NCBI GenBank assembly: GCA_013697915.1
Contig: JACCVY010000240.1
Coordinates: 1-64,000, forward strand
Reading direction: 5' to 3'
DNA: 64,000 nucleotides
Source: Blastocatellia bacterium
GTDB lineage: Bacteria > Acidobacteriota > Blastocatellia > Pyrinomonadales > Pyrinomonadaceae
How positions within the stretch are numbered: the first letter of the stretch is position 1; every line of letters begins with the position of its first letter. Shown piece after piece: positions 10,059-43,864 of the stretch. The notes under the pieces are model-generated. The model had not been told where the DNA came from. It was given only the letters and a program-made list of their open reading frames with translations, and did no database searches. The position numbers and the translations under genes were made by a program.

Positions 10059-10232
10059 GATTTGAAATGTTAAATTTGAACTTCGTTACCAGGTCTTTGG
10101 TCTTGGGTTTTTGGTCTTGGGATTAGGTCTTTGATCTCTGGCCTTGGGTCTTGGGTTTTAGCCTAACTTGAGCTGTTACAAAGCGCAAAAACCAGAGACC
10201 AAAGTCCAAAGACCGAAAACCCAAGGCAAAAG
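10059..10232. repeat. Heptad-repeat tract 2, with inverted arms (SDR / uppP spacer)
   Basis: Most of the spacer between the SDR stop (10240) and the uppP start (10039) has a 7-base period. On the plus strand the units include ATTTGAA near 10060-10080, then GGTCTTT, GGTCTTG and similar words (10091-10158), and finally the complementary words GACCAAA, GTCCAAA, GACCGAA (10187-10229). The last block is a partial reverse complement of the middle block, so the transcript could fold into a long imperfect stem. The tract begins 7 bases after the SDR stop codon. Confidence 0.8.
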
Positions 10233-10239
10233 CCCGCCT

Positions 10240-11010
10240 TTATCCCCTAAACGAATTCCTTCTCGAAATCCGGTCGTACATCCAAATAGGCATTACCATC
10301 CCAGCGCGCACAATACTCGCAAGCTGCCAGGGAAATGCATATGACTTTTTGCGTTTCTCGATCGCGCATAAAATTTTTTGCACCGCGTCGTCGAGTTCCA
10401 TCAGGAATGGCATCTGGGCCTCGCGGCCTGCGGTCAGCGGTGTCTTTATGAAGCCGGGATGAATAATCGTTACCGCAATCCCCTTGGGTTCAAGATCAAG
10501 CCGCAGACTTTCAAAGAATGCCGAAACTGCAGCCTTGCTGGCACAATACGCGGCCGATCTTGGCAAGCCGCGATAAGCAGCCAAACTGGAGATAACGATC
10601 AGATGGCCTTGGCCTCGCGCTAGCATCTGCGGCACGACGGCGACGACGCTGTTCGAAGCTCCGACGACATTGATGTTGATAACGTCCGACACTTCGGCTG
10701 CATCAAGCTCTGACGCATCCCGCGTTGGCCCAATTCCCGCATTCGCAATCAGCACGTCCACCGGACCAAGCGTCGACTGTAATTGTTCAGCCACTCGCCG
10801 CAACGAATCGGCATCGCGTACGTCAGCGGGCAGGACCAGCGCCTGTCCTCCGTTGGTTGCAATTATTCGCGCAACTTCAGCCAACGCCTCAGCGCGACGC
10901 GCCACTAAACCTAATCTGGCTCCTCGTTTTGCAAGCTCAACTGCAAGCGCGCCTCCGATTCCCGAAGACGCGCCGGTGATCATCACAACTCTGTTTTGCC
11001 AGCCAACCAC
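10240..11010 (-). CDS. Short-chain dehydrogenase/reductase (SDR)
   Basis: A classical SDR of 256 residues: cofactor motif TGASSGIGGALA near residue 13, NAG in the central sheet, and catalytic Ser (VISSLAAYRG), Tyr and Lys (YCASK). The C-terminal tail carries a hydrophobic, membrane-leaning segment (MVMPIWMYDRISRRN), as in DHRS7-like SDRs. The substrate is unknown. The frame is open to a TTG at 11025, but those codons lie in heptad-repeat DNA. GTG 11010 is preferred because it is exactly where the repeat tract ends and puts the Rossmann motif at normal depth. No Shine-Dalgarno is visible. Confidence 0.88.
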   Translation of the reverse strand: MVGWQNRVVMITGASSGIGGALAVELAKRGARLGLVARRAEALAEVARIIATNGGQALVLPADVRDADSLRRVAEQLQSTLGPVDVLIANAGIGPTRDASELDAAEVSDVININVVGASNSVVAVVPQMLARGQGHLIVISSLAAYRGLPRSAAYCASKAAVSAFFESLRLDLEPKGIAVTIIHPGFIKTPLTAGREAQMPFLMELDDAVQKILCAIEKRKKSYAFPWQLASIVRAGMVMPIWMYDRISRRNSFRG

Positions 11011-11040
11011 AGTTTCAGGTCTCAAGTTTCAGGTTTCAAG
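11011..11040. repeat. Heptad-repeat tract 3 (four-helix-bundle gene / SDR spacer)
   Basis: Units on the plus strand are GTTTCAG, GTCTCAA, GTTTCAG, GTTTCAA. The tract starts 6 bases after the stop of the four-helix-bundle gene and ends at the GTG chosen for the SDR. It is complementary to tract 4 on the other side of that gene: TTTCAGGTCTCAAG is an exact 14-base inverted match. Confidence 0.8.
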
Positions 11041-11046
11041 CCAACG

Positions 11047-11446
11047 CTATTTGTCAGGTTTTTTGAACTTCGTTCCTTTGATCCCTGACTGGCGTAGATA
11101 ACTCATCAAACCGCTAATCATTCGGCTGACTTCTGTAGCAAGAAAACTGAGTGTCTCGAATAGATCTTGCTCCACGTAGCGCTGATCTAAAGCAATGTAT
11201 AGCTGGGACCTAACCTCGCCTGCCGAACCTTTTGCGGTTGCCAGGAATTGATTGAACTCTGCATTCCCGCTTCGCTCGAAACCTTCAGCGATATTAGACA
11301 TGATAGAGACCGAAGCTCGGCGAATTTGGTCCCTAAGTCCATAATCTCGCGCAAAGCTTCCTTCTGCTGTCACATCATAAATGAGTTTCGTCAGTTCTCT
11401 GTTTCTGCCACGCGGTGATTTCTTCAAAGGTCTTAAAGGTCCCCAT
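11047..11446 (-). pseudogene. Four-helix-bundle (23S rRNA intervening-sequence type) protein gene, frameshifted
   Basis: From residue [11 protein letters not shown] onward this is the four-helix-bundle / S23 family ([14 protein letters not shown] is a hallmark). The intact ORF starts with an out-of-family peptide at ATG 11427. The real start is ATG 11446, six bases after a perfect AAGGAGGT, and reads [15 protein letters not shown], exactly the family N-terminus. That frame then stops 9 codons later. The two frames join at 11400-11402, where the family has a codon such as GCA between WQK and RELT; only one base (C) is present, consistent with a 2-base deletion. The family forms pentamers of unknown role and is often carried in rRNA intervening sequences and small mobile cassettes. 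Confidence 0.82.
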
Positions 11447-11508
11447 TTCCATACCTCCTTAGCAATAAAAGACTCTAGCGGCCAAGGGTGTTTCCAAAAC
11501 CAGAGTAA

Positions 11509-11550
11509 CTTGAGACCTGAAACCTGAAACTTGAAACTTCAAACTTGAAC
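11509..11550. repeat. Heptad-repeat tract 4 (rnj / four-helix-bundle spacer)
   Basis: Plus-strand units are GAGACCT, GAAACCT, GAAACTT, GAAACTT, CAAACTT. The tract runs into the rnj gene and supplies its stop codon and the last three codons (VQV). It is the inverted partner of tract 3, so tracts 3 and 4 bracket the four-helix-bundle gene. Confidence 0.8.
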
Positions 11551-13200
11551 GACGACGGGCATGATAACCGGCCGCGCGCCCGTAAGTTTTTGTATGAAAC
11601 GTTTCAACTCAACGCGTACGTGCTCTTTCAACAGGCTCTCATCGGCAAGTGTTTGCCGCGAGGCGCCGGCGATGGCGGCCGCAACCACACGTTGCGCATC
11701 CTTCAAAGAACCATTTGCTGAATCGAAGCCACGCACGCCCCGCGTTACGATTTCGGGCGGCGATTGCAGTTCGCCTGTTTGTGCGTTGATGGTCACAACC
11801 AAGGTGATCATCCCTTCATACGCCAACTGCCGGCGCTGACGGATTGTTTCGCTCTCGATCTCTTCAAAACCAGTGTCATCAATAAACGTGCGCCCGATTT
11901 CCCGCTTGCCAACTACCGCCGCTCGCTCGCCGTCTAGCTCAAGCACGTCGCCATTTTCTATCAGAACGATGTTTTCTTCAGCGTAACCCAAGTGGTTTTT
12001 GACAAACTCCTTGTGGCGAAACAGCATGCGATACTCGCCATGAATCGGCACCACGAACTTTGGCCGCACAGCTTCGGTCATGATGCGAATGTCTTCCTGT
12101 GACGCATGACCGCTAACGTGGACCAGCCTGCGCTTCTCTTCAATGATGTTGGCGCCGCGTTTGTAGATCATCCCAATCATTCGCGAAATCAAGCGCTCGT
12201 TGCCGGGGATGATGCGCGCCGAAAGCACGACCGTGTCGCCTTCGTCGATCATCAGGCCCTTATAGCTTTGCGTCGCCATCTGCGAAAGAGCGGCGCGCGC
12301 TTCACCTTGAGAACCGGTCACCAAAAACACTATCTCATGATCGCGCATCTGCTTCGCTTCATTCAGCGAGACAAGCAGGCCGTCGTGAATGTCCAGGTAA
12401 CCGAGACGATCGGAGATCTCGACGTTCTTCTGCATCGAGCGCCCCAGCACGCAAACCTTGCGATTGAACTGTTGCGCGATGTCAATCACGATTTGCAGGC
12501 GATGTATCGACGACGCGAAAGCGGCAACGATGATGCGGCCGCCGGCTTCAGCAAAAATCTCTTCAAACGCCGGAATCACAGCGCGCTCTGACGGGGTGCG
12601 GCCCGGCACCGTCGCGTTCGTCGAGTCCGACAAAAGCGCGAGCACGCCTTCCTGTCCGTAACGCCGAAACGAGCGCAGGTCTATGGGCTCGCCAATCACT
12701 GGGGTCTCATCGACCTTGTAGTCGCCGGTATGAATGATTGTGCCGACCGGCGTTTTGATGGCAAGCGAAAAACAATCAACCAGCGAATGCGAGACGCGAA
12801 TAAACTCCACGGTGAAGACGCCAATATCGACCACATCACGCGGCTCGACCCGATGGAGTAACACGTCGTTCGTCAATTCATGTTCTTCGAGTTTGCTTTC
12901 AGCCAATCCGGCGGTGAAGTGCGAACAGTAAACAGGAACATTGAACTTCTTGAGAAGGTAAGGCAGCGCGCCCAGATGATCCTCGTGGCCGTGCGTAAGA
13001 ACTATCGCAGTTATGTGATCGCGGTACTCTTCGAGAAAATCAAAATTAGGAATGCAGACGTCAACGCCATAGGCAGTTTCTTCAGGAAAGCCCATGCCCG
13101 CGTCGAGAATGAGCATCTCATCCTCATAACGCACAGCCATGCAATTCATTCCAAACTCGCCGATCCCGCCGAGCGGAATAATCTCGAGAACACTACTCAC
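11539..13200 (-). CDS. rnj: Ribonuclease J
   Basis: A 553-residue metallo-beta-lactamase/beta-CASP nuclease with endo- and 5'-3' exoribonuclease activity in mRNA decay and rRNA maturation. Visible motifs are the zinc-binding THGHEDHLGA (about residues 70 to 79), HTGDYKVDET, the beta-CASP serine/threonine region (LSDSTNA), GSQGE and HVSGHASQEDI. The C-terminal domain of about 100 residues is present, so the length is normal. The last codons and the stop lie within heptad-repeat DNA. Transcription probably starts from an extended -10 element about 75 bases upstream. The divergent gene is the M64 peptidase. Confidence 0.95.
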   Translation of the reverse strand: MSSVLEIIPLGGIGEFGMNCMAVRYEDEMLILDAGMGFPEETAYGVDVCIPNFDFLEEYRDHITAIVLTHGHEDHLGALPYLLKKFNVPVYCSHFTAGLAESKLEEHELTNDVLLHRVEPRDVVDIGVFTVEFIRVSHSLVDCFSLAIKTPVGTIIHTGDYKVDETPVIGEPIDLRSFRRYGQEGVLALLSDSTNATVPGRTPSERAVIPAFEEIFAEAGGRIIVAAFASSIHRLQIVIDIAQQFNRKVCVLGRSMQKNVEISDRLGYLDIHDGLLVSLNEAKQMRDHEIVFLVTGSQGEARAALSQMATQSYKGLMIDEGDTVVLSARIIPGNERLISRMIGMIYKRGANIIEEKRRLVHVSGHASQEDIRIMTEAVRPKFVVPIHGEYRMLFRHKEFVKNHLGYAEENIVLIENGDVLELDGERAAVVGKREIGRTFIDDTGFEEIESETIRQRRQLAYEGMITLVVTINAQTGELQSPPEIVTRGVRGFDSANGSLKDAQRVVAAAIAGASRQTLADESLLKEHVRVELKRFIQKLTGARPVIMPVVVQV

Positions 13201-30040: not shown

Positions 30041-30116
30041 AAAGGATGAGGGAGGAAGGATGAAGGATGAAATAGGATGAACGAAAATTTTCTTCATCCT
30101 TCCTCCTTCCTCCTTA
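30041..30116. repeat. Heptad-repeat tract 6, inverted arms (mlaF / mlaD spacer)
   Basis: Left arm (30041-30082) has units GGATGAG, GGAGGAA, GGATGAA, GGATGAA. Right arm (30091-30116) has TTCATCC, TTCCTCC, TTCCTCC. The arms are complementary and could form a hairpin in the mla mRNA. It uses the same word family and the same arm order relative to transcription as tract 5. It starts two bases after the mlaF stop and ends nine bases before the mlaD start. Confidence 0.82.
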
Positions 30117-30125
30117 CTGAGCGCT

Positions 30126-43756: not shown

Positions 43757-43864
43757 TTGGTTCGTGATCAGTCGTCAGTGGTTCTTTGTTGTTTGGTCTT
43801 TGGTCTTCGGCCTTTGCGCCTACTGCCTTCTGCCGGCTGCCGGCTGCCGTCTGCCCCTGCCGAC
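43757..43864. repeat. Heptad-repeat tract 7 (coiled-coil gene / gatB spacer)
   Basis: The whole 108-base spacer keeps one 7-base phase from the gatB start codon to the stop codon of the upstream gene. Plus-strand units change gradually, for example TCGTCAG, TTGGTCT (twice), TTCTGCC, GGCTGCC (twice), GTCTGCC. Words of tracts 1 (GTCAG) and 2 (GGTCTT) both occur here, which links the tracts as one family. Confidence 0.85.

Follow-up and report, generated by a model that had tools for sequence, protein, structure and literature searches.

Genes encoding a four-helix-bundle protein (4HB, PF05635) and a pair of arms made of inverted heptad repeats co-occur at many unrelated sites in bacteria of many phyla. 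One such cassette lies in the window, by which we mean the whole 64,000-nt stretch of contig JACCVY010000240.1 (Blastocatellia bacterium, assembly GCA_013697915.1) that was analyzed. We are fairly confident that this copy belongs, as one decayed member, to a family of insertion elements that are only about 0.5 kb in size. The terminal inverted repeats are matched within a locus and unlike between loci, and thus are not of the insertion-sequence type. The element would consist of inward-reading heptads (typically NKTNNNN)n, a ribosome-binding site, the 4HB gene, and n reverse-complement heptads. From site variation and interrupted genes we infer that the cassettes are mobile, and they apparently represent a widespread bacterial insertion element undescribed until now. 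An earlier note on this DNA had proposed that a small element was inserted at the end of a gene and is bordered by the repeats. Comparisons with relatives support that proposal; the note had overlooked the heptads that are locus-specific yet matched within each locus, the in-frame cassettes, and the frameshift of the window copy.

The cassette between rnj and the SDR gene

Inverted heptad tracts at 11011-11549 bracket the 4HB gene in the window. The cassette and its surroundings comprise the following features.

10092..10235, no strand: gene-less inverted heptad pair of the GGTCTTT type, at SDR|uppP, the junction that follows in this operon
10240..11010, minus strand: SDR-family dehydrogenase, the downstream host gene of the operon, apparent GTG start at about 11010
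11011..11040, no strand: outer arm, 3' of the 4HB gene, abutting the SDR start; inverted heptads, in gene sense CTTGAAACCTGAAACTTGAGACCTGAAAC
11047..11452, minus strand: 4HB gene, by family match (PF05635 / TIGR02436); ATG at 11452, frame broken at about 11400/11401
11508..11549, no strand: arm located 5' of the 4HB gene and including the rnj stop codon; period-7 tract, in gene sense TTCAAGTTTGAAGTTTCAAGTTTCAGGTTTCAGGTCTCAAGT
11539..13200, minus strand: rnj (ribonuclease J), the upstream host gene of the operon

The earlier note had described the two tracts as reverse complements over 14 bases. This was borne out, and the exact match extends to 17 nt (11012-11028 against 11507-11523), with the extended arms (11011-11040 and 11509-11538) matching at 87% across 30 nt; shuffles of the window contained a mean of 0.0 heptad tracts. 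The note had also placed the enclosed gene in a family found in rRNA intervening sequences (IVSs), and had read one repeat as supplying the rnj stop codon and the other as reaching the SDR start. All three readings hold: the gene matches PF05635 with 110 bits and TIGR02436 with 107 bits, the stop codon lies within the right tract, and the apparent GTG at about 11010 directly adjoins the left one.

The natural start of the 4HB gene in the window copy is the ATG at 11452 on the minus strand. In the assembly, a MAG of 271 contigs, a 2-nt deletion at about 11400/11401 frameshifts this copy and sets its N-terminal 15 residues out of frame with the remainder. The orthologue in genome G004 is intact and open throughout, and that in G014 carries a different frameshift near its C-terminus. 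Between the window arms there is only the 4HB gene and no transposase, and no catalytic domain was recognized within the cassette; this and the fact that no transposition was observed speak against an insertion element. Its neighborhood contains no reverse transcriptase, and thus does not have the layout of a diversity-generating retroelement with Avd.

The rnj|SDR junction in relatives

Relatives were located by their RNase J protein, and their rnj|SDR junctions were then read. The gene and both tracts are present in G000, G004, and G014. In G006 the gene is missing from the junction and a single short tract lies at the stop codon; the junction of G017 likewise has one tract and no gene, and those of G003, G005, G009, G013, and G015 have neither gene nor tract. 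RNase J protein identity is 99% for G004 and 97% for G006. This pattern of presence and absence indicates that the site is polymorphic within the genus. The comparison had been suggested in the earlier note, and it revealed that gene and tracts are not always present. The same note had held that tracts found here without the gene, in identical form, would count against a cassette; single arms without the gene do occur in G006 and G017, but they are not identical. These single arms could be remnants of loss; the pattern at this one site would fit losses as well as gains. The arms also change in a coordinated manner at this site, with TCTC in both arms of G000, TTTCGAG in both arms of G014, and TTTCAAG in G004.

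Matched arms and their sites within the genus

The genome that contains the window has 12 PF05635 matches, nearly all of which lie within inverted heptads. The heptads vary by locus (AGTGATG, AGTGCTG, GGTATCA, AGTTGTC, ATTTCGG, ATTGCCG, and others), and the search for other 4HB genes with like borders, another suggestion of the earlier note, thus recovered the same type of border with heptads differing by locus. To assess arm matching, we aligned every 5' flank locally to the reverse-complemented sequence of every 3' flank and set a threshold of 14. For 11 loci of this genome, the mean score was 21.3 within loci versus 8.5 across loci (permutation p<1e-4), and the own-arm pair on the diagonal was the best in 10 of the 11 rows. 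At or above the threshold were 23 of 24 further loci from the genus. Over 1.195 Mb of G004, matched arms were found at all eight 4HB genes.

Cassettes in the genus lie between co-directional genes, often spanning the distance from stop codon to start codon, as at rnj|SDR, gap|pgk, and nuoI|nuoJ. Several junctions, nuoI|nuoJ and gap|pgk among them, vary in content and hold different elements or none. The nuoI|nuoJ junction carries the same 4HB subfamily with ATTGCCG arms in six genomes, a different 4HB gene with other arms in G014, and gene-less hairpins of three further heptads in G004, G006, and G011 (nested in the last); in G007 it measures only 25 nt. At the junction of locus L017, one 4HB subfamily is associated with three heptad types depending on the genome, and only 13 nt are found in G015. 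The L017 junction also holds palindromes rich in GC that belong to a different repeat family (GCGGGCG type), at L179 in G004 and L180 in G014, indicating that one stop|start junction gathers unrelated palindromic elements. Filled and empty sites are strongly diverged, too much so for a target-site duplication to be delimited.

Matched arms across bacteria

Screening 84,980 species yielded 80 loci in about 16 phyla, as judged by record titles; the scan motifs represent one 4HB subfamily, so that for the family as a whole the estimate derives from the genus sample. The 4HB gene was also present in three IMG/VR viral contigs, which were added to the 80 loci. A phage collection gave no 4HB match, and carriage by phages was rejected. 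Flanks were long enough for the arm test at 74 loci. A score of at least 14 was reached in 61 of these, compared with 10 of 1181 control windows of the same geometry from the same loci; several low-scoring loci have arms that appear degenerate by eye, and these were left out of the counts. The arms read inward: in gene sense, G exceeds C in the 5' arm in 59 of these 61 loci and in 26 of 31 in a further count. This G-rich 5' arm in nearly all loci indicates that polarity is conserved while sequence varies. Since most scan loci come from MAGs, ten plasmid 4HB loci of cultured isolates were read, and all ten have inverted heptad arms. In plasmids of Anabaena sp. 90 and Pseudanabaena (L244 and L245), 4HB cassettes lie between cas6 and cas4 in CRISPR loci.

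These frequencies bear on whether there is an element at all. Slippage in slack intergenic DNA could generate heptads, and 4HB genes could be old accessory genes located there by chance. Gene-less tracts and hairpins are indeed common, as 52 of the 64 heptad pairs in the same 1.195 Mb of G004 have a loop of less than 220 nt, and tandem heptamers are known in other bacteria (PMC4679880). However, matched arms surround 4HB genes about 100-fold more often than they occur in control windows, all six of the G004 pairs with a loop of 370-490 nt hold a 4HB gene, and cassettes interrupt conserved genes and 23S rRNA. We therefore regard chance association as highly improbable.

Copies within 23S rRNA and protein-coding genes

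The window copy lies outside 23S rRNA, between rnj and the SDR gene. By contrast, a plasmid locus of Azospirillum lipoferum (L250), which has heptad arms, is entirely contained in a match to bacterial LSU rRNA (2139 bits) that extends across the insertion. The 23S IVSs of Coxiella, Leptospira, and Salmonella likewise contain the same protein family with inverted repeats around the gene. As in the Azospirillum 23S copy, heptameric repeats adjoin the gene in the Coxiella IVS, in which tandem GACAGAT heptamers precede the S23p gene (PMC4990558). Together, the heptad arms of L250 and the Coxiella heptamers suggest that the classical rRNA IVS, which looks like an rRNA-resident form of the same heptad-armed element, belongs to this family.

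In 16 of the 83 loci, a stop-free host frame runs through the whole cassette, from 250 nt before to 250 nt after the 4HB gene (less at the contig ends of L080 and L156). At these 16 loci, the open host frame corresponds in every case to +2 relative to the 4HB gene and never to +1. No +2 stops were observed in the 16 loci, whereas 49.3 were expected from synonymous-codon shuffling. In the other 67 loci, +2 stops were still depleted (237 observed versus 327 expected), while +1 stops across all loci were at expectation (573 versus 559). Depletion of +2 stops was weaker in the genus sample (175 versus 206 expected).

The interrupted genes could be identified at several loci. NCBIfam models matched both flanks of the insert for BREX-1 PglX in L083, L089, L096, and L151, and for an error-prone DnaE in L160, an IMG/VR contig in which the cassette lies in frame between the NTPase and finger domains; methylase matches were found on one side only in L110, L125, and L141. 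PglX is interrupted at three different places, and the genomes concerned belong to different phyla. The product of the +2 frame is polar, with a hydrophobic fraction of 0.28 versus 0.45 for the 4HB frame, and a ribosome-binding-like site precedes the gene's own ATG in 13 of 15 in-gene 4HB genes. Both frames are probably translated in the in-gene copies. The host proteins of L145 (Chlorobiota), L151 (Omnitrophota), L110, and L141 also contain further short in-frame insertions of gene-less heptad hairpins, encoding peptides such as SGQWSV and PLTTDH.

Maintenance of the arms and role of the 4HB protein

Mismatches between arms were of G:U type and A:C type in equal measure, with ratios of 71:71 in distant loci, 33:30 in the genus, and 104:101 in total. 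This equality indicates that RNA pairing alone is not what keeps the arms alike, and RNA-stem selection as the main cause of arm identity was rejected on this ground. It likewise weighs against the idea that the cassette serves RNA processing, with cleavage of a transcript stem by RNase III preserving the arms and the RNA device insulating or excising the 4HB message; an excess of G:U-type mismatches would be expected. Moreover, in-frame copies keep the host frame open, which would be pointless if the insert were cut and the message broken. What such a role would explain is the presence of the same kind of arms in the 23S rRNA copy, the excision of the Coxiella IVS by RNase III within its inverted-repeat stem (PMC4990558), and the orientation of the cassettes. 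The latter are mostly co-directional with the operon, matching both neighbors in 23 of 28 distant loci; this count covers clear cases only, as overlapping frames in GC-rich DNA mislead raw-ORF counts, and some of the cases that it lists as antisense probably represent ORFs on the strand opposite pglX. On balance, we consider an RNA-processing cassette improbable. We infer instead that one arm is copied onto the other at the DNA level, which fits both the lack of a wobble bias and the coordinated changes at the rnj site.

The dN/dS of the 4HB gene at nuoI|nuoJ is 0.06-0.13, indicating that a working 4HB protein is selected, at least at that junction; copies like that in the window still decay. 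The closest solved structure to the 4HB profile of the relatives is PDB 2gsc (4e-38), a homopentamer of four-helix bundles (PMC4990558). Our best guess is a putative role of the 4HB protein in binding the arms.

Taken together, our findings lead us to lean, if only modestly, towards a pan-bacterial selfish element based on dual coding. It would combine a 4HB frame, a stop-free hydrophilic +2 linker, and variable heptad ends that match each other, with rRNA IVSs and many intergenic hairpins as its forms or derivatives. The 4HB protein, a relative of S23/IVP, would probably bind the folded arms and aid insertion or maintenance, while the DNA work would be done by host replication or repair, or by another enzyme in trans. 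Arm identity would probably be maintained by arm-to-arm copying of DNA, for example by template switching at the hairpin, which would also add or remove heptads. Such an element could survive wherever it is tolerated: between genes, in rRNA from which the insert is excised, and in proteins by virtue of the stop-free hydrophilic +2 frame.

Relation to known elements

Unlike 23S IVSs, the window element and nearly all others described here are located not in rRNA but at operon junctions or in frame within protein genes. Judging by the IVS descriptions compared, further differences are heptads that are specific to a locus and matched between its arms, and a second frame free of stops. The rRNA insertions of CPR bacteria also carry a 4HB-type protein (PMC11270868). 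As one of the copies is an IVS of the classical kind, we place the armed cassettes as a variant of the rRNA IVS; the dual-coding, genome-wide form may deserve a class of its own.

Rickettsia palindromic elements are small palindromic insertions that are tolerated in frame within protein-coding genes and are not known to carry a gene of their own. In-frame insertion into coding genes is shared by 16 of the 83 related loci, but not by the window copy, which is intergenic. The present element differs in having a conserved gene, in a frame other than that of the host. Dispersed hairpins of which the gene-bearing form is rarer are also typical of REP/BIME sequences with RAYT and of MITEs; here, however, there is no transposase, arm sequence is not conserved between copies, and the RAYT-type Y1 genes examined are not bracketed by the arms. 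Tandem heptamers include the cyanobacterial STRR and the TAACTGA repeats of Beggiatoaceae, Cyanobacteria, and Bacteroidetes (PMC4679880). These share the period of 7 and the intergenic location, and TCAGTTA fits the present heptad framework, but they are direct, almost never inverted (one case), and have no link to 4HB genes (PMC4679880). Within the openly searchable literature, we found no description of 4HB genes bracketed by matched heptad arms at sites outside rRNA or in frame within protein genes.

4HB genes are common in bacterial genomes, where they are annotated without function, and the origin of rRNA IVSs has lacked an explanation ever since they were discovered. Gene and arms, occurring together, give both one common unit with recognizable ends. 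This association predicts sites of new copies, marks intergenic tandem heptamer hairpins as possible derivatives, and provides a testable case of an element with two overlapping open frames that is able to live inside the gene of another protein. If the element moves without a transposase, its mechanism would be new.

Gene-less hairpins and candidate partner enzymes

Gene-less heptad hairpins outnumber gene-bearing ones. Those on contig C15 of G004 are intergenic, with only 1 of 28 in a long open frame compared with 39% of random positions. We searched for enzymes that might act as partners. Y1/RAYT transposases, with 13 genes in G000 and 15 in G004, were rejected, as none of the 16 loci examined had matched arms; heptad tracts occurred elsewhere in three of these loci. 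Reverse transcriptases were also rejected, being undetected in the 4HB-bearing genomes G006, G007, G011, and G015 as assembled, and in the genomes checked no matched heptad arms were found around them.

The hairpins themselves might be a non-autonomous mobile unit, moved by an enzyme encoded elsewhere, with 4HB as occasional cargo. Such a passenger role would account for the far greater number of gene-less hairpins, for the existence of nested hairpins, and for the one non-4HB gene that is bracketed. Yet the cargo is the same gene family in about 16 phyla, neither Y1 transposases nor reverse transcriptases have matched arms, and several 4HB genomes have no detected reverse transcriptase. We thus think it unlikely, though worth serious consideration, that 4HB is a mere passenger, and favor an element to which the 4HB gene belongs.

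The bracketed non-4HB gene encodes an apparently secreted protein of 155 aa and lies between well-matched ATTTACC arms in G004 (C2:76784-77396), and 4HB is therefore not the sole gene that such arms enclose. Hairpins nested in hairpins of another heptad were observed at G004:C15:205648-205937 and at nuoI|nuoJ of G011 (L170), which suggests successive insertions. In the window, the GGTCTTT pair at SDR|uppP (10092-10235) is a likely gene-less relative of the 4HB cassette. Two adjoining heptad tracts of unlike sequence, with no clear inverted partner, lie at 43781-43855, and another gene-less inverted heptad pair, of the CTTCCTC type with a 26-nt loop, lies at 30042-30118.
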